From contig RECO01000209.1 of NCBI GenBank assembly GCA_007694015.1, positions 1 through 33,087 of the forward strand: a stretch of DNA of 33,087 nucleotides, read 5' to 3'. Numbering within the stretch: position 1 is the stretch's first letter; every line of letters begins with the position of its first letter. Origin of the DNA: Geminicoccaceae bacterium. GTDB lineage: Bacteria; Pseudomonadota; Alphaproteobacteria; Geminicoccales; Geminicoccaceae. The notes beneath the pieces are model-generated. The model did no database searches, was not told where the DNA came from, and saw only the letters and a program-made list of their open reading frames with translations. Shown one piece after another: positions 11,554-23,043 of the stretch. The position numbers were made by a program, and so were the translations under genes.

Positions 11554-12849
11554 CTAGGGGGTGGGGGCGGGGGCGTCAAGCGGGGTGGTGCGGACGTAGA
11601 CGTCGAGCGTGCCGTCGCGCCCGCGCAGCGCTTGGGCGGGCAGGCGTTCGTAGTGCTCGAGAAGGTCCAATCCTGCCACCGCCTTGGCAATCGTGCCGGA
11701 GACCACCACCGGCGTGTCGAGTTCTCGGGTCAGCCGTTCGAGCCGTGCGGCGACGTTGACCGCATCGCCGATGACCGCGAACTCGAAGCGCTCGCCGCCG
11801 CCGATCTCGCCGAGCACCGCCTCGCCGAGATGGAGGCCGATGCCGACATGGACGGGCGGCTCGCCGGCCTTGGCCCGTTCGACGTTCCAATGATTTAGGC
11901 TCGTGCAGATCGCTTCGGCGCAGCGCAGCGCCCTGATGGCGTCGTCGGCGGTGGCCTCGGGCAGGCCGAAAATGGCCATTTGCGCATCGCCCATGAACTT
12001 GTCGATCGAGCCGCCATGGGCGAACACCGCTTCGGCGAGCCGGCCGTGAAAGCCGCGCAGCAGCTCGATCACGCGCTCGGGCGGCAGGCTTTCCGCCGTG
12101 CGGGTGAAGCCCTGCATGTCGGCGAAGAGGACCACGAGCTGCTGCGTCCGCACCTGGCCCAGCGGCTGATCGCGGCCGGCCAACTGGTCGACCACGGTGG
12201 GGTCGAGATAGCGGGCCAGATTGGCCCGCTGCCGTGCCGCCTCGACCTGCTCGAACAGGAGCCGGCGGGCGCGCAGCGTTGCCAGTGCCAGGATGGCGGT
12301 GACGACGAGGGTGACGAAGATGCGGACGGCGGCGTCGTCAAGGTGCACGTAGGTCGCCCGGAGATAGCCCTCCAGCCAGCCCCCGGCGCTGGGCGCGGTG
12401 CCCGGCAGGAGGAGGTCGGTGACGGTGTCGGGATGGGCGACGATGAGGGCGGTGCCGACACTCCAGCTGAGCGCGATCATGAGGCCGGTCCAGAGCGTGA
12501 CCAGCGGCTGCAAGGTGAGGACGGCCAGCGCCAAGGGCAGGAACATGTAGAGAAAGGTCGGCGGGCGCAGCGCCATCTGCCAGGGCCAGTCGTCGGGATA
12601 GGCGTTGCCCGGCGCCAGGAGCGCCACCGTGAAGATGATGACGTCGAGGCTCGCAAACACCATCGGCGGCCAAAGGGCATCCGGTCGGCGTTGGCGAATG
12701 CGGAGCTGGGCGATACCGAGGGCGATGAGGACCGCCAGAATGACGAGATTCTGCCACATCACCGCGAGGTCGTAGCGCACCAGCAGCCAGACACCGATGG
12801 CGAGCAGCACGGCGGTCCGCACGATGGTGACGAGGCGGAGATTGGCCAA
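11554..12849 (-). CDS. Membrane-anchored class III adenylate/guanylate cyclase
   Basis: The protein (431 residues from this start) has about six N-terminal hydrophobic helices (roughly 12-190), a short linker, and a C-terminal class III cyclase domain (about 235-410). Metal-binding aspartates are Asp244 in LFADMQGFT and Asp288 in DKFMGDAQ. Lys284 favours ATP as substrate, and GDAVNVAARLE supplies the transition-state Asn and Arg. It should make cAMP in response to a signal sensed by or near the membrane. The start is uncertain: the frame is open upstream into repeat R1-B without any ATG or GTG, so TTG at 12849 is the first usual start codon. GTG at codon 10 is an alternative. No clear ribosome site is seen for either. 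Confidence 0.9.
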   Translation of the reverse strand: MANLRLVTIVRTAVLLAIGVWLLVRYDLAVMWQNLVILAVLIALGIAQLRIRQRRPDALWPPMVFASLDVIIFTVALLAPGNAYPDDWPWQMALRPPTFLYMFLPLALAVLTLQPLVTLWTGLMIALSWSVGTALIVAHPDTVTDLLLPGTAPSAGGWLEGYLRATYVHLDDAAVRIFVTLVVTAILALATLRARRLLFEQVEAARQRANLARYLDPTVVDQLAGRDQPLGQVRTQQLVVLFADMQGFTRTAESLPPERVIELLRGFHGRLAEAVFAHGGSIDKFMGDAQMAIFGLPEATADDAIRALRCAEAICTSLNHWNVERAKAGEPPVHVGIGLHLGEAVLGEIGGGERFEFAVIGDAVNVAARLERLTRELDTPVVVSGTIAKAVAGLDLLEHYERLPAQALRGRDGTLDVYVRTTPLDAPAPTP

Positions 12850-13084: not shown

Positions 13085-13212
13085 ATCGCTTTTCGCTTAG
13101 GCAATTCCTGGACCATCCCGCACCCCCGCCCGGCCGCCCACGAGTGTACGAGGCCATGGGCGGTCGGGCGGGGGTGCGGGATGGTCCAGCCGTTCGCAAA
13201 GCCCCCTAGATC
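13073..13212. repeat. 15-bp direct repeats flanking R2 copy 2
   Basis: AAAGCCCCCTAGATC occurs at 13073-13087 (right end of R1 copy B) and at 13198-13212. The second occurrence contains the complement of the glcE stop codon (13206-13208). The 110 bases between them are R2 copy 2 with short flanks. Confidence 0.7.
13108..13189. repeat. Palindromic repeat R2, copy 2
   Basis: Two 33-nt arms (13108-13140 and 13157-13189) are inverted repeats with a single G/T-type mismatch around a 16-nt loop (13141-13156). The arms begin CTGGACCATCCCGCACCCCC. The reverse complement of the right two thirds matches R2 copy 1 (7979-8032). The flanks resemble the 12-mer arms of copy 1 only weakly. Confidence 0.85.
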
Positions 13213-14405
13213 CCTGCATACATCCGCCCAGGGTTCAGGCGTCGCTTCGGGTCGAACGTGTCTTTCAGGCGTTCCGTCATCGCCATCAGCGGCTTGGCGC
13301 GTGGCTCGAAGACGTCGATGCGGGCGCGGAGTGCAGCGGGGGCGCGGATGCAGGTGGCGTGGCCGCCGGTTTGGCGGAGGTGGTGGCGCAGCGTGGCGGC
13401 ACCGGCGTCGTCGCCGAGGGGGACGGCGAGCCAGAGGAGGCCGCCGCTCCAGTCGAGGAAGCCCGTAGCATCGAGCTCGCGGGTGAGGGTGGTGTGGAGG
13501 GTTGGGCCGTGGCTCGGGGCGACCGAGAGGCGCCAGATGGCGCGCTCGCGGGGCTCGGCCAGGAGACGCACGTCGCGAACGTCGCGCCAGAGGGTGCGGC
13601 TCGTGTCGGGGTCGAGCCGGGTGGTGGACCCTCGAGCCTGCACCAGGCGTTGGAGGGCGGTGGTACGGCGGTCGAGGAAGTCCGTAAAGGTTTGGAGGCG
13701 CAGGAGGGTGAGAGGCGCGTTGCGGCCGAGGCTGCTCGCTTCTGCCAGCTCGGCCGGCAGCCAAGCGGCGGCGGCGACCTCGAGCGGGGTGGCCATGGCG
13801 GCCTGTAGGGTGCGGGCGGCCTGGGTCGCGTCTTGGCCTTCGATCACCAGGGTGGTTTCGGTCTGGGCTTGGGGCAGGACCTTGAAGGTGACTTCGGTGA
13901 GCACGCCGAGCGTGCCGTGCGCGCCGGCGCTGAGCTTCACGATGTCGAGGCCGGTGACGTTCTTCATCACCCGGCCGCCGGAGCGCATGATTAGGCCGGT
14001 GCCGTCGACGAAGCGGACCCCGATCAGGCTGTCGCGCAAGGCACCGCGGGCGACGCGCGCCGGGCCCGAGAGGTTGGTGGCGACCAGCCCGCCGAGCGTC
14101 GGCGTGCGATCTTCGGTGCCGAGCAGGTGGCGCAGATCGGGCGGCTCGAAGGGCAAGGCTTGGCCCTCGGCGGCGAGTGCCGTCTCGGCTTCGGCGACCG
14201 GCGTGCCGGCCTTGGCCTGAAACACCAGCTCGGTGGGGCGATAGAGGGTGATTCCTGCGAGCCGCTCGAGGCTGAGCACGTCGTCGGCGGCGATGGGGCG
14301 GCCGATGCCCTCGAGGCTGCTGCCGCCCTGGATTGCCAGCGCTGTCGCCGTTTCGCGGACGAGTTCGGTGAGTTCGGCTTCGCTCGATGGTGCGTGGTGG
14401 GCCAT
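13206..14405 (-). CDS. glcE: Glycolate oxidase FAD-binding subunit GlcE
   Basis: The 399-residue protein is a FAD-linked oxidase of the GlcE type, shorter than GlcD and lacking its C-terminal HAGDGN motif. The PCMH FAD fold is seen in PTELVFQAKAGTPVAE, TLGGLVATNLSGP and SGGRVMKNVTGLDIVKLSAGAHGTLGVL. The C-terminus DPKRRLNPGRMYAGI is typical. With GlcD and an iron-sulfur subunit GlcF it oxidises glycolate to glyoxylate at the membrane. The ATG at 14405 lies 4 bases after the glcD stop; a longer reading to 14444 would overlap glcD. No glcF follows: the next DNA is the repeat cluster, whose 15-bp direct repeat covers the glcE stop codon. Confidence 0.92.
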   Translation of the reverse strand: MAHHAPSSEAELTELVRETATALAIQGGSSLEGIGRPIAADDVLSLERLAGITLYRPTELVFQAKAGTPVAEAETALAAEGQALPFEPPDLRHLLGTEDRTPTLGGLVATNLSGPARVARGALRDSLIGVRFVDGTGLIMRSGGRVMKNVTGLDIVKLSAGAHGTLGVLTEVTFKVLPQAQTETTLVIEGQDATQAARTLQAAMATPLEVAAAAWLPAELAEASSLGRNAPLTLLRLQTFTDFLDRRTTALQRLVQARGSTTRLDPDTSRTLWRDVRDVRLLAEPRERAIWRLSVAPSHGPTLHTTLTRELDATGFLDWSGGLLWLAVPLGDDAGAATLRHHLRQTGGHATCIRAPAALRARIDVFEPRAKPLMAMTERLKDTFDPKRRLNPGRMYAGI

Positions 14406-14409
14406 CGGC

Positions 14410-15861
14410 TCAAGCCGCCCGGCCGAGTGCCGTGGTCGTGGCATCCTCCAGTGGGAACACCTTGCCGACGTTCAGGATGTCGTGCGGGTCGAAGGCGGCC
14501 TTGATGCGCTTTTGCAAGGCCAGTTCGTGGGCCTCGAACTGGTAGTCCATCAGGTCGCGCTTCTCGATGCCGACGCCGTGTTCGCCGGAAAGGCAGCCGC
14601 CGACGTCGACGCAGAGCTTCAGGATTTCGGCACTGCACTGCTCGGCTTTCTCCAACTCGCCCGGCGCGTTGGCGTTGTAGAGGATGAGCGGGTGCAGATT
14701 GCCGTCGCCGGCGTGGAAGATGTTGGCCACCTCCAGGCCGTAGCTGCGGCTGATCTGGCCGATGCGGTCGAGGGTTTCGGGCAGGGCCGAGGTGGGGATG
14801 GTGCCGTCGATGCAGATGTAGTCGGGCGAGATGCGGCCGACCGCACCGAAGGCCGACTTCCGGCCCTTCCAGATGGCGGCGGCCTCGGCGGCGTTGGAGG
14901 CGACGCGGAGATAGCTCGCGTCGTGCGCCTTGGCGATCTTGGTGATGCGGGCGAGGAGGTCGTCGATCTCGGTGTCGTTGCCCTCGACCTCGGCGATCAG
15001 CACGGCCTCGACGTCGAGCGGGTAGCCGGCGTGGACGAAGGCTTCGACGGCGTGGATCGCTGGCTTGTCCATGAACTCGAGCGCCACCGGGATGATGCCG
15101 GAGGCGATGATGGCATCGACGCAGGCGCCGGCTTGGCGGTTGCTCTTGAAGCCCAAGAGCATCGGCCGCGCACCTTCGGGGGCTTTGAGGATGCGCACCG
15201 TGACCTCGGTGACGACGCCGAGCTGGCCCTCGGAGCCGCAGAGCAGGCCCAACAGGTCGTAGCCAGCGGCGTCCAGATGCTTGCCGCCGATCTCGACGAT
15301 GTCGCCCTCGACCGTGACCAGCTTCACGCCCAGGAGGTTGTTGGTGGTGACGCCGTATTTGAGGCAGTGGGCGCCGCCCGAGTTGTTGGCGACGTTGCCG
15401 CCGATCGAGCAGGCGAGCTGCGAGGAGGGGTCGGGCGCGTAGAAAAAGCCCTCGTGCTCGACCGCCTGGGTGATGGCGATGTTGGTTACGCCGGCCTCGA
15501 CCGTCGCCGTGCGGTTGGCGAAGTCGAGGTCGAGGATGGCGTTGAGCTTCATCAGGCCGAGCACGACGCCATCGGCGGTGGGCATGGCGCCGCCGGCGAG
15601 CGAGGTGCCGGCGCCGCGGGCGGTGACCGGGATCCGCTCCTGGTGGCAGTAGCGCATGACCGCTGCCACCTCCTCGGTGGTGCGGGGCAGCACCACGGCG
15701 AGCGGGATCTGGCGATAGGCTGAAAGGCCGTCGGTCTCGTAGGCGCGGATTTCGTCCTCGGCCTCGATCACGCACTCGGCGGCGGGGCAGAGGCGCTTCA
15801 GGTCGGCGACGATCAAGGCCCTGCGGGCCATCACGGCCGCGTTCGGTTCGGGCATGCGCAT
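14410..15861 (-). CDS. glcD: Glycolate oxidase subunit GlcD (FAD-linked)
   Basis: The 483-residue protein is the catalytic FAD subunit of glycolate oxidase. The PCMH domain shows RIPVTARGAGTSLAGGAMP, SIGGNVANNSGG and GSEGQLGVVTEVT. The C-terminal FAD-oxidase domain shows NIFHAGDGNLHPLI and GCLSGEHGVGIEKRD. It oxidises glycolate or D-lactate-like 2-hydroxy acids. The ATG at 15861 has GGGAGG about 9 bases upstream. An opening to 15903 is less likely. It heads glcD-glcE and is transcribed divergently from padR; a minus-strand -10-like TATAAG (15932-15937) overlaps a PadR-type dyad, so the same regulator may control it. Confidence 0.95.
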   Translation of the reverse strand: MRMPEPNAAVMARRALIVADLKRLCPAAECVIEAEDEIRAYETDGLSAYRQIPLAVVLPRTTEEVAAVMRYCHQERIPVTARGAGTSLAGGAMPTADGVVLGLMKLNAILDLDFANRTATVEAGVTNIAITQAVEHEGFFYAPDPSSQLACSIGGNVANNSGGAHCLKYGVTTNNLLGVKLVTVEGDIVEIGGKHLDAAGYDLLGLLCGSEGQLGVVTEVTVRILKAPEGARPMLLGFKSNRQAGACVDAIIASGIIPVALEFMDKPAIHAVEAFVHAGYPLDVEAVLIAEVEGNDTEIDDLLARITKIAKAHDASYLRVASNAAEAAAIWKGRKSAFGAVGRISPDYICIDGTIPTSALPETLDRIGQISRSYGLEVANIFHAGDGNLHPLILYNANAPGELEKAEQCSAEILKLCVDVGGCLSGEHGVGIEKRDLMDYQFEAHELALQKRIKAAFDPHDILNVGKVFPLEDATTTALGRAA

Positions 15862-15933
15862 GGGCTCGGGCCTCCCCTCTCGATCTTGGTCTCGATGTGG
15901 CATAGGGCGGGGCGAAAATCCAGCCGACCGCCT

Positions 15934-15985
15934 TATATCGAGCCGATATAACCGCTTCCCTATTGTATCGATCCGATATATATCG
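15934..15985. promoter_or_regulatory. Two PadR-type operator dyads between glcD and padR
   Basis: TATATCG-AGC-CGATATA (15934-15950) is a perfect 7-3-7 dyad. TGTATCG-ATC-CGATATA (15964-15980) is the same site with one base changed. Their centres are 30 bp apart, close to three helical turns, so dimers would lie on one face. CGATATATATCG (15974-15985) extends the second site as an overlapping palindrome. The region is strikingly A/T-rich against its surroundings. The position between divergent glcD and padR suggests repression of padR-MFP-RND and perhaps of glcD. Confidence 0.75.
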
Positions 15986-16010
15986 CACCGCGAACTTCGA
16001 GGTGTGTGTG

Positions 16011-16592
16011 ATGGACGTGCGGACCTTGTGCCTGGGCGTGCTCGCGCTCGGCGAAAGCTCGGGCTACGAGATCAAGAAGACGTTCGAGCAGAGCTTTCAT
16101 CACTTTTTCGGGGCGAGCTACGGCTCGATCTACCCGGCCTTGGCCGAGCTGGAACGCGCGGGCTGGGTCGAGGTGGAGGCCGTCGAGCAGTCGAAGCGGC
16201 CGGACAAGAAGGTCTATCGGATGACGCGGGCCGGCCGTTTGGCCCTCGAAGAGCGCCTGGCCGCGGAAGCCCCACGCCACCGCGTGCGCTCGGAGTTCCT
16301 GGTCTTGATGTACTTCGCCCACCTCCTGCCGCCGAACCGTCCGGCCGCCGTCCTGGATGCCATGATCGAGCGCATGACCCACACCTTGGAGGTCGAGTTC
16401 AGCACGTGCGATGCGGGTGATGCCGAGTTGACGCCGGGGCAGCGCTTTGCGCTCGGCTATGGCCGCGCGGTCTACACCGCAGCGCTCCGCTACATGCACG
16501 AGCAGCGCGACGACTTCCTGGCGGAGGTGGCGGCGACCGACGCTGCCGGGCCGGGCTGGCCGGACGGCGGCCTCGCCGTGGCCGGAGAGTGA
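16011..16592 (+). CDS. PadR-family transcriptional regulator
   Basis: The 193-residue protein has the PadR winged helix (about 1-80): LALGESSGYEIKKTFEQ, then GSIYPALAELERAGWVEVE, then KKVYRMTRAGRLALEE. A helical C-terminal dimerisation domain follows (about 95-185), the two-domain form related to Vir/AphA-like PadR proteins. Members bind palindromic sites and release them on binding phenolic or other toxic ligands; the ligand here is unknown. The ATG at 16011 has GAGG 8 bases upstream. It is the first gene of an operon with an RND pump, one base separating it from the next gene. This is the classic arrangement for a local efflux repressor. Confidence 0.9.
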   Translation: MDVRTLCLGVLALGESSGYEIKKTFEQSFHHFFGASYGSIYPALAELERAGWVEVEAVEQSKRPDKKVYRMTRAGRLALEERLAAEAPRHRVRSEFLVLMYFAHLLPPNRPAAVLDAMIERMTHTLEVEFSTCDAGDAELTPGQRFALGYGRAVYTAALRYMHEQRDDFLAEVAATDAAGPGWPDGGLAVAGE

Positions 16593-16593
16593 G

Positions 16594-17712
16594 ATGCGCG
16601 CCTCGATCGGCGTGGCGGCCCTGATCGCCTTGGGTCTCACCGGCTGGATGGCCTCGGGCCAGGAGGCGGTGCGGGCCTGGTTCCAGAGCAGCGAGGCCGC
16701 CCCGGTGGAGGCGGCAGCGCCGGCTGCGGCCGAACGGCTCGCCCGGGTGCGCGTGATGACGAGCACGGCCGCACCCGTCTCCCGCGAGCTCGTCCTGCAC
16801 GGCCGCACCGAGCCGAACCGTGCGGTGACCTTGCGTGCCGAAACGCATGGCCGGGTCGTCGAGCTGTTGGCGGCGAAGGGCGAGCGGGTCGAGGCCGGCC
16901 AGCCGATCCTGCGGCTGGATGCCCGCGAGCGGGAGGCGATGGTGGCCCAGGCGAGCGCCCTTTTGCGCCAGCGGCAGTTGGAATACGAGGCGGCCAGGCG
17001 CTTGGGCGATCGGGGATTTCAGGCTGAGAACCAGGTGGCGGCGGCGATCGCGCAGCTCGAAGCGGCGCGCGCCGAGTTGCGCTTTCGCGAGGTCAGCCTC
17101 GGCCACACCCTGGTCGAAGCCCCTTTCGCCGGCCTGTTGAACGATCGCCATGTCGAGATCGGCGATTTCGTCGACACGGGCGATGCCTTGGCCCTGCTGT
17201 TGGAGCACGATCCGATCCTGGTCACGGCGGAGGTGAGCGAGACGCGCAAGCGCCACGTCCAGGTCGGCATGGTGGCCGAGGTGGAGCTGGCGGACGGCAC
17301 CATCGGCGAGGGCGAGCTGCGCTTTTTGTCGCGCCAGGCCGATCCGAGTACGCGGACCTTCCGCGTCGAAGTGCAGGCCGCCAATCCGACCGGGGCCATC
17401 CCCGCCGGCATGAGTGCCCGCCTCCGGCTGCGCTTCGACGAGGTGCCGGCGCACGAACTCTCGGCGGCGTTGTTGGCGCTCGATGCGCAGCATCGCTTGG
17501 GCATCAAGGTGGTGGACGAGGCGGACGTGGTGCGGTTCGTGCCGATCGATCTGGTGCGGGCGGAGCGCGATGCCGTGTTCGTCGCGGGTCTGCCGCTGGA
17601 GGTGCGCGTGATCGTGGTCGGCCAGGGCTTCGTCCGGGACGGCGAGCGGGTCGTCGCCGTCGACGTCGAGCCGGGTTCGCTCACCGCCAACCTGATGGGT
17701 CTTGGCCGTTGA
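16594..17712 (+). CDS. RND efflux periplasmic adaptor (membrane fusion protein)
   Basis: The 372-residue protein has an N-terminal membrane anchor/signal segment (about 4-20, IGVAALIALGLTGWMA) without a lipobox cysteine. The first half of a lipoyl domain is RAETHGRVVELLAAKGERVEAGQPILRLD. A helical hairpin follows (about 115-165), and the second lipoyl half is TLVEAPFAGLLNDRHVEIGDFVDTGDALALL. The beta-barrel and membrane-proximal domains complete it. It should bridge the RND pump encoded next to an outer-membrane channel, which is not encoded in the window. The start lies one base after the padR stop. The stop overlaps the RND start (TTGA). Confidence 0.92.
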   Translation: MRASIGVAALIALGLTGWMASGQEAVRAWFQSSEAAPVEAAAPAAAERLARVRVMTSTAAPVSRELVLHGRTEPNRAVTLRAETHGRVVELLAAKGERVEAGQPILRLDAREREAMVAQASALLRQRQLEYEAARRLGDRGFQAENQVAAAIAQLEAARAELRFREVSLGHTLVEAPFAGLLNDRHVEIGDFVDTGDALALLLEHDPILVTAEVSETRKRHVQVGMVAEVELADGTIGEGELRFLSRQADPSTRTFRVEVQAANPTGAIPAGMSARLRLRFDEVPAHELSAALLALDAQHRLGIKVVDEADVVRFVPIDLVRAERDAVFVAGLPLEVRVIVVGQGFVRDGERVVAVDVEPGSLTANLMGLGR

Positions 17713-20876: not shown

Positions 20877-20913
20877 GCAAGACGCGGACGCCCTCTTTTT
20901 CGCGGCGGGGGCG

Positions 20914-20942
20914 TTGTCATGAACAGTATTTTCATGTTAAAC
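20914..20942 (+). promoter_or_regulatory. Candidate promoter with a dyad in its spacer
   Basis: TTGTCA (20914-20919), 17 bases, TTAAAC (20937-20942). The inverted repeat CATGAA-CAGTATT-TTCATG (20918-20936) fills the spacer, a usual place for a repressor operator. The -10 match is weak. It precedes a small ORF with a strong ribosome site. Confidence 0.35.
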
Positions 20943-20967
20943 CCCCGCCAACTTCAGGAGAGCCTAG

Positions 20968-21189
20968 ATGGGCAGGGCAGCGGCGGGGGAAGACGCGCGC
21001 GCGCGATGTCTATTGCGGTCGATCGGCACCGTCTTGCGGTCCATCGAACCGATGGACCCCGCCTGGGAAATCCGCGCCCACGAGCTGGCGAGACTGGTCG
21101 AACTCGCGGCCGAGGCCGACCCCGGCCAACCTTTGAGCGCGCTGATCAGCGCACAACGGCGCGCCGATTTGCACATCGTCGGCGAGTAG
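20968..21189 (+). CDS. Small hypothetical protein (73 residues)
   Basis: I do not recognise a family. The reading frame has a strong ribosome-binding sequence (AGGAGAG at 20956-20962) at good spacing from the ATG, and an A/T-rich promoter-like stretch upstream. The second half reads like a compact helical protein (MDPAWEIRAHELARLVELAAEA), followed by LSALISAQRRADLHIVGE. The first 25 residues are rich in Arg, Ala and Gly and less convincing. Another ATG at residue 29 could start a 45-residue version. No membrane segment or known motif is seen. It stands alone between the RND pump and the hairpin repeat R1-C. Overlapping ORFs on both strands are possible rivals. Confidence 0.5.
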   Translation: MGRAAAGEDARARCLLRSIGTVLRSIEPMDPAWEIRAHELARLVELAAEADPGQPLSALISAQRRADLHIVGE

Positions 21190-21502
21190 GGGCCGCTTGA
21201 ACGGTCCAACCGCACCGTCGTCGTCCGCCTTGGGGCCTGGGCGTCTTCCGTTTGCCCCCCATGATATTGTGACGAAGCCGGCTATGGGCGGGTGCCCGTA
21301 GCGGGCGGTTTGCAACGCAGCAAACGCGACCCTGGTCGAGCCCCGCCGAGACCGGAATTGGCCGCAGCGATCGGCCACCGGGCCTGCCCGGTGGCCGATC
21401 GCTGCGGCCCGGGGGTTACCAAGGGGGCCAAAAGCCCCCTTGGCCTTTGGTCACCTTGGCGTCACAAGCGGCGTGGTTCGTTCGTTTGGGGAGACGAGGC
21501 CC
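21190..21502. other. Gene-free region with hairpins
   Basis: These 313 bases hold no supported gene. They contain a near-perfect small hairpin around 21281-21305 (GCTATGGGC / GCCCGTAGC), a 6-bp hairpin GTTTGC-AACGCA-GCAAAC, then repeat R1-C (21360-21443). A purine-rich ribosome-site-like sequence lies just before the GTG at 21503. Confidence 0.5.
21360..21443. repeat. Palindromic repeat R1, copy C (central hairpin plus right cap)
   Basis: A perfect 24-bp inverted repeat (21360-21383 and 21386-21409) with only two bases between the arms begins GGCCGCAGCGATCGGCC. Nine bases later the right cap CCAAGGGGGC-CAAAA-GCCCCCTTGG (21419-21443) is identical to that of copy D. The central arms share no obvious sequence with those of D or B although each pairs perfectly or nearly so. 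No left cap is found upstream. Confidence 0.85.
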
Positions 21503-22432
21503 GTGTCCACCCGTGCTGCCGGTCGGTGGTTGCGCCGGCTGATCACCGTGCCGCTCACTTTGGCCGTCGTCGTGCTGGCTTATTTCGGCATCGGCGCGGT
21601 GGTGGTGCATCAGATCGACGACGATCCGGCCTTTGCGGTCGACGTGGCGACGCCGGAGGGTGGGCTCAGGACGGTGGCGGCCATGGCGGCCCTGTTGGAG
21701 CGCGAGATCGACCGCACCGGTTGGGTGGCGAACGATCCGGCCTTTCAGCCGGGGGCGTGGCTCGTGGCGATGCCGGCCTATCAGATCGCCATTCGCGATG
21801 CGATCGATCGGCTCGCGGCCGATTTCGCGGCCGGACGCACGGCCGATGGGCTCGAGGCCTCGCCCGAGTTGGAGGCCGCCCGGCTCAGCCTCGCCATGCC
21901 GGGCGACGTCTGGGCCTTCGACTTCACCAAGACCTGGCGCCCGCAACGCACCTCGGAGGCGTTCTACCGCGATGCGGTGGGCGCACTCAGGCGGTTCAAC
22001 GCGCGGGTCGCGATCGGCGAGGAGGGCTCGGGCCTGGGCCCGTTGACGGTCGCCTCGGTGCTGCAGCGCGTCGACGACGAACTGAACCTGATGGCCGAAG
22101 CCGCACTCGCCCATGTCGCGGCGCGGGGCGGGCACTGGCTGGACGAGGTCGGCACGCCGTCCTTCTTCACCGCCAAGGGCACGCTCTACGCCCATTTCGT
22201 CCTGCTGCGCGCCTTGGGTGAGGACGTCGAGGGCCTCGGCCGCGCCGCCGGCTGGGGCCGCTTTTTGACGTCGCTGGAAGCGGCTGCCACGCTGCATCCG
22301 GCCTGGGTGATGAACGGTCACGCCGAGGGCACGTTGCGGCCGGCGCATTTGGCCACGCAGGCGGCGCTGGTGTTGCGGGCGCAGCGCGATTTGGACCAAG
22401 TGCGGCGGGCCCTTGCCGCCATGGATGCTTGA
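21503..22432 (+). CDS. DUF2333 family membrane-anchored protein
   Basis: The 309-residue protein has one N-terminal membrane helix (about 14-36, TVPLTLAVVVLAYFGIGAVVV) and a large, probably periplasmic domain. The segments DDDPAFAVDV, GWVANDPAFQPGAWL and YQIAIRDAIDRLA followed by DVWAFDFTKTWRPQRTSE match the DUF2333 family as I know it. Function is unknown. GTG at 21503 was chosen because GAGACGAGG lies just upstream and the product then begins MSTRAAGRWLRR directly before the helix; the frame is open to 21440 but that part lies beside the R1-C cap. It precedes the nfuA-type gene by 53 bases. Confidence 0.8.
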   Translation: MSTRAAGRWLRRLITVPLTLAVVVLAYFGIGAVVVHQIDDDPAFAVDVATPEGGLRTVAAMAALLEREIDRTGWVANDPAFQPGAWLVAMPAYQIAIRDAIDRLAADFAAGRTADGLEASPELEAARLSLAMPGDVWAFDFTKTWRPQRTSEAFYRDAVGALRRFNARVAIGEEGSGLGPLTVASVLQRVDDELNLMAEAALAHVAARGGHWLDEVGTPSFFTAKGTLYAHFVLLRALGEDVEGLGRAAGWGRFLTSLEAAATLHPAWVMNGHAEGTLRPAHLATQAALVLRAQRDLDQVRRALAAMDA

Positions 22433-22485
22433 AGCGCCGCGAGGTCGGCGCCATGTTGCGGGCCAACGTCGACGAGGTGGGAACC

Positions 22486-23043
22486 ATGTTCATTCAAACG
22501 GAAGCCACGCCGAACCCGGCCAGCATGAAGTTTTTGCCGGGCCGAACCGTGATGGAGGCGGGCGTCGTCGACTTCACCGACGCCGCCAAGGCGGGCGAGC
22601 TCTCGCCCTTGGCGGCCCGGCTGTTCGCGGTCGACGGGGTGAGCGGGGTCTATCTGGGCCGCGATTTCATCACCGTGACCAAGACCGAAGCCGACGAGTG
22701 GCACGACCTCAAGGCCGCGGTGCTGGGCGCCATCATGGAGCACTTCATGAGCGGCGAGCCGGCGGTGGTGGCCGGTGCGGTCGACGACGAACCCGCTGCG
22801 AGCGAGGAGGACGACGCGGTCATCCGGCAGATCAAGGAGCTGATCGACACCCGGGTCCGGCCTGCGGTCGCCCAGGACGGCGGCGACATCGTTTTCCACG
22901 GCTTCGAGCGCGGTGTGGTCTACCTGCACATGCGCGGCGCCTGTTCCGGTTGCCCGAGTTCGGTGGTGACGCTGAAGAACGGTATCGAGAACCTGCTCCG
23001 CTACTACGTGCCCGAGGTGAGCGAAGTCCGCGCCATTTCCTGA
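22486..23043 (+). CDS. nfuA: NifU/NfuA-type iron-sulfur cluster carrier
   Basis: The 185-residue protein has an N-terminal Nfu_N scaffold domain (MFIQTEATPNPASMKFLPG, about 1-90). Its C-terminal NifU domain carries the cluster ligands Cys153 and Cys156 in RGACSGCPSS. This combination is the usual alphaproteobacterial and mitochondrial Nfu form, which passes 4Fe-4S clusters to target enzymes. MiaB, encoded downstream, is one such cluster enzyme. The ATG at 22486 has GAGGTGGG just upstream; in-frame codons back to 22429 overlap the preceding gene and are less likely. The name nfuA is used in the broad family sense. Confidence 0.93.
   Translation: MFIQTEATPNPASMKFLPGRTVMEAGVVDFTDAAKAGELSPLAARLFAVDGVSGVYLGRDFITVTKTEADEWHDLKAAVLGAIMEHFMSGEPAVVAGAVDDEPAASEEDDAVIRQIKELIDTRVRPAVAQDGGDIVFHGFERGVVYLHMRGACSGCPSSVVTLKNGIENLLRYYVPEVSEVRAIS

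Follow-up and report, generated by a model that had tools for sequence, protein, structure and literature searches.

In the window, by which we mean the whole 33,087-nucleotide stretch of Geminicoccaceae DNA analysed here, a padR gene is followed on the same strand by genes for an RND periplasmic adaptor (membrane fusion protein, MFP) and an RND permease, and it faces a divergent glcD-like gene (Table 1). The padR product belongs to the PadR family by Pfam (PF03551), its N-terminal winged helix scoring above cut-off, and has relatives of solved structure in the PDB (3l9f, 6jyi, 5x11 and 1yg2). Its length and the helices of its structure model (residues 92–105, 110–129 and 142–178) agree with PadR-s1 proteins, defined in the accessible text of PMC3506622 as having about 180 amino acids and a C-terminal domain of about 80–90 residues made of several helices. 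The model (mean pLDDT 79.4, pTM 0.70) matched long PadR structures across nearly the whole chain in Foldseek; the best TM-score was 0.63 (Rv1176c), and most others were about 0.4 with an rmsd near 18, so the orientation of the domains is uncertain. The adaptor ATG lies 1 bp after the padR stop codon and the permease gene overlaps the adaptor gene, and the three genes are predicted to form one unit, with operator-like sites in padR's own promoter. PF00873 spans most of the permease, whose nearest solved relatives are MexK (6vej) and MdtB (7wlv); its scores against the curated NCBIfam models for MdtB, MdtC, AcrB, AcrD and OqxB all fell far under cut-off (275.3 against 1774 for MdtC). Directly behind the pump, at 20877–23043, no outer-membrane channel gene was seen; a frame at 21440–22432 without a Pfam match is followed there by a NifU-like gene.

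On the other side, TIGR00387 and NF008408 (GlcD; 575.9 bits against a cut-off of 897) are the two best matches of the divergent gene though both lie under cut-off, and we therefore call it glcD-like. Its likely start at 15861, an ATG behind AGGGGAGG, was chosen by comparison with two related genomes, G009 and G019. Behind the glcE-like gene comes a frame (11554–12849) that encodes an adenylate/guanylate cyclase domain. The sole glcF-like gene above cut-off (NF008434, 463 bits; L206, G000:C299:6154-7410) lies on another contig, away from glcDE.

Table 1 Features of the padR–efflux locus and its divergent neighbour in the window
Feature	Position	Strand	Basis or remark
glcE-like FAD-binding protein, downstream of glcD (name putative)	13206..14444	-	PF01565, 54.1 bits
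glcD-like FAD-linked oxidase, divergent neighbour	14410..15861	-	TIGR00387, 494.7 bits vs equivalog cut-off 567.9
TATAAG, -10-like hexamer proposed earlier for glcD	15932..15937	-	sequence
Outer (glcD-side) dyad TATATCGAGCCGATATA	15934..15950	.	14/14 vs TATATCG-N3-CGATATA
Putative padR -35 place, CTTCCC (weak)	15955..15960	+	counterparts TTGTCA (G019), TTGCTC (G009)
Inner dyad TGTATCGATCCGATATA	15964..15980	.	13/14; 47 bp 5' of padR start codon
Putative padR -10, TATATA	15977..15982	+	16 bp after -35 place; overlaps inner dyad
Third, half-complete dyad TATATCGCACCGCGAAC	15979..15995	.	10/14; left arm perfect
padR, 193 aa, PadR-s1-type regulator	16011..16592	+	PF03551, 67.4 bits vs cut-off 27, residues 8-81
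RND periplasmic adaptor (membrane fusion protein)	16594..17712	+	TIGR01730, 147.7 bits vs 94.9; PF16576
RND efflux permease (AcrB/AcrD/AcrF family), 1055 aa	17709..20876	+	PF00873, 571.5 bits, residues 5-1025

A preliminary description of this DNA had reported two near-identical 17-bp dyads with centres 30 bp apart between the divergent genes, and this is what we find: the outer and inner dyads are identical at 15 of 17 positions and their centres, at 15942 and 15972, are exactly 30 bp apart. A third dyad, missed in that description, lies 15 bp beyond the inner one in the same 15-bp register, so that the window holds three sites at 0, +30 and +45; the slot in the middle of the pair (15949–15965) is degenerate, with 4 of 14 positions matching. 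The surroundings are A/T-rich, again as described, with 48–50% GC in three 60-bp segments (15920–16019) against 53–83% in the other segments of 15500–16400. The genome-wide search for the 17-mer that the description had proposed, run on 3,808,475 bases in 322 contigs (93% complete), found a dyad with at most one mismatch at two places, both of them the window pair; the sole further place with two mismatches (L003) lies within an open frame.

To place these sites in a wider context, upstream DNA was collected at 123 padR loci. A padR search of genome contigs had returned 14 loci, eight in Sneathiella and others in Oceanibacterium (like Sneathiella, Alphaproteobacteria), Minwuiaceae and unclassified Alpha- or Proteobacteria; 24 genomes were matched among 60 relatives, and 90 among 385 genomes of the class, at 97 places. 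The 123 loci comprise the 14, the stronger ones among the 60 relatives and all 97 class places; seven weak relatives (L053-L059) were left out of locus counts, L043 was replaced by L185, and six near-duplicates (L134, L096, L097, L128, L161, L163) were dropped before counting, which left 117. A search of 398 genomes of the phylum matched 10, every one of them a member of the window's class, in a sample for which the share of other classes is not given.

A dyad matching at least 11 of 14 positions lies within 320 bp upstream of padR at 105 of the 117 loci (nine of them perfect), compared with 0.5% of shuffled regions, and at 96 of 102 padR loci with a detected pump gene. Twelve loci lack such a dyad (L104, L105, L121, L155, L159, L171, L176, L177, L178, L179, L181, L182). 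Over the 105 best sites, strands pooled, the motif reads TATATC, each base at 85–98%, followed by G at 73% (otherwise mostly A), and the dyad centre favours purine-any-pyrimidine. Strong padR orthologs (E below 1e-50) are present in 13 genomes of the window's family, and in every one of them a dyad scoring 12/14 or better lies upstream of the gene; nine of these dyads differ from TATATCG-N3-CGATATA at no more than one position, those of G001, G007, G017 and G004 being weaker. In the 18 family genomes that lack a strong ortholog, no dyad within one mismatch was present in any part of the sequence. In G009 (L033) the identical outer 17-mer stands at -77 and the inner counterpart at -47, the same distances as in the window, and in G019 (L034) the inner counterpart is kept at -46 and the outer dyad is absent. 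Between the window and G009, 31 of 34 dyad positions are identical, compared with 49 of 115 positions elsewhere between the two divergent genes; dyads kept while their background changed argue for selection on them, in a comparison that does not tell apart the gene served.

The spacing of the dyads is conserved as well. Partners of at least 10/14 were counted relative to the best dyad at every locus and compared with shuffles; they occur at -15, +15, +30 and -30 bp in 30, 25, 8 and 5 of the 105 loci, where 0.24, 0.17, 0.01 and 0.02 were expected, at +45 in one locus, the window, and at -45 in none. Offsets of +13 and -13 gave five partners each (expected 1.5 and 1.8), and offsets such as 2, 4, 13, 17 and 28 also exceed the shuffles in mean score; we read these as TATA repeats sliding on themselves, and in the partner counts no offset but 15 and 30 stands out strongly. 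The excess survived thinning of the loci by PadR identity to 78, 68 and 37 clusters, and one locus per 50%-identity cluster still gave partners at -15, +15, +30 and -30 in 10, 9, 5 and 2 of 37. Altogether, 60 of the 105 loci have a lattice partner, meaning a dyad of 10/14 or better at a distance of 15, 30 or 45 bp, and the other 45 have none. Dyads 30 bp apart occur at 13 loci; the middle site is skipped at six (L028, L032, L033, L103, L111, L112) and kept at seven. On this lattice the 30-bp pair of the window is two steps of 15 bp with the middle slot skipped. What sequence comparison shows is the motif and where it lies, that it is kept together with padR genes of this type, and that it recurs in 15/30-bp phase. 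With a helical repeat of about 10.5 bp, adjacent dimers on such a lattice would occupy approximately opposite sides of the DNA, and a dimer would share much the same side with one two steps away.

A sigma-70-type scan of 15820–16060 returned no promoter-like site on either strand, and the putative padR promoter was therefore positioned by alignment. At the aligned place G019 reads TTGTCA-N16-TATATC, G009 TTGCTC-N16-TATACC and the window CTTCCC-N16-TATATA. The inner dyad covers the spacer and -10 of this place in both G019 and G009, and the putative -35 place of the window falls within the vacant lattice slot. Across the 105 loci, a TTG-type -35 at a fixed place is weakly enriched (at -9 in 11 loci). 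The preliminary description had also assigned a -10-like TATAAG to glcD under the left dyad. The overlap is real, but a role as the glcD -10 finds no support, in that the scan detected no promoter and the hexamer is not conserved: the same place reads TATACG in G009 and nothing TATA-like in G019, from which we read TATAAG as mostly the dyad's own TATA end.

Which protein would read the dyads can be approached through the regulators encoded beside them. Among 122 aligned proteins, a dyad accompanies 72 of the 76 that have the exact helix and wing signature (GSIYPAL plus RPDKK) and 38 of the 46 with another form; the link between protein and motif is therefore a tendency. Six of the twelve dyad-less loci have an adjoining pump, and four of those six keep the full signature. 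Twelve padR relatives without a pump match in about 2 kb downstream split evenly by recognition helix or wing. Six that keep the helix GSIYP(A/S)L have dyads of 11–13/14 (L106, L141, L146, L151, L156, L163), amounting to about four independent cases since L151, L156 and L163 share one site and look near-identical; six that depart in helix or wing reach at most 10/14 (L171, L176, L177, L178, L181, L182). Pump-less relatives with an intact helix keep the dyad, indicating that it goes with the PadR type even without the pump. The earlier label of PadR-type dyads is thus upheld by comparison, the dyads tracking this PadR type and its RND pump, but not by the known PadR consensus: the dyad lacks the inverted ATGT/ACAT repeat spaced by about 8–10 and instead holds ATAT-N7-ATAT inside TATATCG-N3-CGATATA.

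Exact dyads occur in the 385 class genomes at 16 places in 16 genomes, eight upstream of a padR ortholog and eight not, and none of these latter eight loci has a GlcD match. Among the genomes concerned, G193, G373 and G242 have no padR match at 1e-25, and G309 and G216 have differing neighbours. Three related genomes (G226, G112 and G318; L195, L196 and L197) have the exact dyad at apparently the same place and padR elsewhere in the genome; a Pfam scan of the first two found the dyad beside an NADH-pyrophosphatase-type NUDIX gene. A lattice partner was present at one of seven scanned off-padR sites (L197), L191 being left out. Away from padR loci, the 31 family genomes hold dyads with no more than one mismatch on G004:C74, where the site falls within an open frame that we take to encode an endonuclease/phosphatase-type protein, and on G020:C186; the site on G011:C170 belongs to that genome's padR locus, which is cut by the contig end. 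The G020 site (L186, G020:C186:6084-6100) is a single 13/14 dyad; about 40 bp separate its end from the start of another adaptor–RND pair, possibly a second target of PadR.

A/T-rich DNA can give rise to TATA-rich dyads, and the pair might in principle represent chance palindromes in an A/T-rich promoter island. In 20,000 dinucleotide shuffles of 15920–16010, however, a dyad of at least 13/14 arose 18 times and two such dyads never; together with conservation at 105 of 117 loci and a fixed 15/30-bp phase that outlasts cluster thinning, this contradicts a chance origin, whose probability we regard as negligible. That a regulator other than PadR binds the dyads, PadR merely lying downstream, is conceivable from the three genomes of one family (f83) with an exact dyad away from padR, but those genomes also carry padR, many genomes have dyads upstream of this PadR type, including loci with no pump gene behind padR, and the pump-less relatives with an altered helix or wing have none; we consider another binder very improbable. 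As to what the outer dyad does, the preliminary description proposed that one repressor links glycolate oxidation to the RND pump, the outer dyad also repressing glcD in this lineage, and that the pump substrate or inducer may be related to glycolate or another hydroxy acid. The outer dyad does lie 73–89 bp before the glcD start, overlapping TATAAG, and it is letter-identical in G009, where glcD is divergent too and most of the intergenic DNA has changed. Against this, a GlcD match adjoins padR at only three of the 123 loci (L032, the window's own, L033 in G009 and L034 in G019), judged mostly from at least 1.5 kb of upstream DNA and at two loci from 0.7–0.8 kb; G019, with the same gene order, is without the outer dyad; and TATAAG is not conserved. 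Of 20 glcD loci scanned (weak paralogs L093 and L094 left out), the window's own and that of G009 carry dyads, while all 18 orthologs elsewhere have none in the 350 bp that precede the matched start (best 9/14), and eight of these 18 genomes (G001, G004, G007, G008, G011, G015, G031, G034) also have a padR ortholog. Moreover, a GlcD match is absent from 11 of the 13 loci that carry a 30-bp pair.

We reject glycolate coupling as the main function in view of this rare adjacency, the dyad-less glcD orthologs among those scanned and the GlcD-free 30-bp pairs, and dual control within the present lineage appears unlikely; no result points to a substrate or inducer related to hydroxy acids. The glcD gene is probably a neighbour outside the system, and any effect of the dyads on it would be lineage-specific at most, limited to the present genome and G009. 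Most simply, the outer dyad is read as a site serving the pump operon. We consider it likely that it acts as an auxiliary site for the padR operon alone, a cooperative upstream operator whatever the neighbour, which refines the operator model set out below: a partner dyad exists at 60 of 105 padR loci, and only two of those 60 (the window's own and G009) adjoin glcD. The missing outer dyad of G019 speaks against this role too, as does the presence of the middle site at seven of the 13 loci with 30-bp pairs, only six of which skip it. More generally, regulation of a divergent neighbour should not be read from one genome.

Taken together, the paired dyads very probably constitute the autoregulatory operator of a padR–MFP–RND efflux operon, bound by PadR on a 15-bp lattice and keeping the operon repressed until a ligand releases the protein. 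PadR as the binder, repression, cooperativity, the promoter position and ligand induction are what we infer from the arrangement. PadR dimers would bind the 17-bp dyads on the lattice upstream of padR, the inner dyad lying over the putative padR -10 region and the outer one just upstream of the putative -35, an arrangement in which bound PadR would block expression of padR and both pump genes. The pump would be induced when a ligand, probably one of its substrates, loosens PadR. A bolder generalisation, which we put forward as speculative and rather doubtful, is that an Alphaproteobacteria-wide PadR-s1 repressor, undescribed in the literature searched, controls an RND pump through a fixed 15-bp lattice, its dimers standing side by side on roughly opposite faces as a cooperative array in which lineages slide, skip or add steps, the added outer step having here reached the glcD promoter.

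With these predictions, what began as a pair of palindromes becomes a regulatory code for an RND pump that can be put to the test, comprising the motif, its register and about 100 loci. Links between PadR proteins and drug export seem to be rare in Gram-negative bacteria, to judge from the accessible text of PMC10812688, and the operator would for that reason offer a direct handle on compounds that induce the pump. In a search of open papers we recognised no description of a PadR–RND system or of this motif, which may nonetheless be in print; in the accessible part of PMC2774856 the motif is part of a primer. Judged from sequence, the dyads are real and conserved, and they look functional; autorepression of a drug pump by PadR is already known in kind, and the distinctive part is the conserved 15-bp register.

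The predicted system resembles LmrR of Lactococcus lactis, which, as far as the accessible text of PMC4534193 goes, represses itself and lmrCD and binds two motifs, with more than one dimer proposed to load. The window would hold a counterpart to a PadR-type, self-repressing repressor of a multidrug exporter. LmrR, however, is a short PadR-s2 protein with an ABC exporter, whereas the window encodes a PadR-s1 protein with an RND pump; the LmrR motif, ATGT/ACAT with a spacer of about 8–10, the consensus given for PadR proteins in the available part of PMC3506622, differs from TATATCG-N3-CGATATA, and we found no 15-bp register for LmrR in the accessible sources. For cdPadR1 of Clostridioides difficile, the portion of PMC5050560 that was available describes two inverted repeats upstream of the gene, at 25 and at 52 bp; the latter covers the predicted -35/-10, an arrangement that its authors read as autoregulation. 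Extra shifted complexes described there suggest more molecules on longer DNA. The two repeats in a padR promoter are shared with the window, but cdPadR1 is a PadR-s2 protein with a TACT/AGTA motif, and that portion mentions no RND pump. Vsr1 of Elizabethkingia anophelis, reported in 2024, is a Gram-negative PadR repressing its own operon, as proposed here, and in the available part of PMC10812688 its authors describe it as the first PadR tied to drug resistance in a Gram-negative bacterium; it differs in being a 112-aa PadR with the membrane protein ORF551 instead of an RND pump, and the authors, in that part, found no PadR site. Among PadR-s1 proteins of solved structure, B. subtilis PadR (5x11), B. 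cereus BC1756 (6jyi) and Rv1176c (8ioi) have the same winged helix and helical C-terminal domain that sequence and predicted fold indicate for the window protein. B. subtilis PadR controls a phenolic acid decarboxylase. By their entry titles, two of its structures contain p-coumaric acid (5x13, 5y8t). The difference lies in what is controlled, there the decarboxylase and here, by prediction, a pump.
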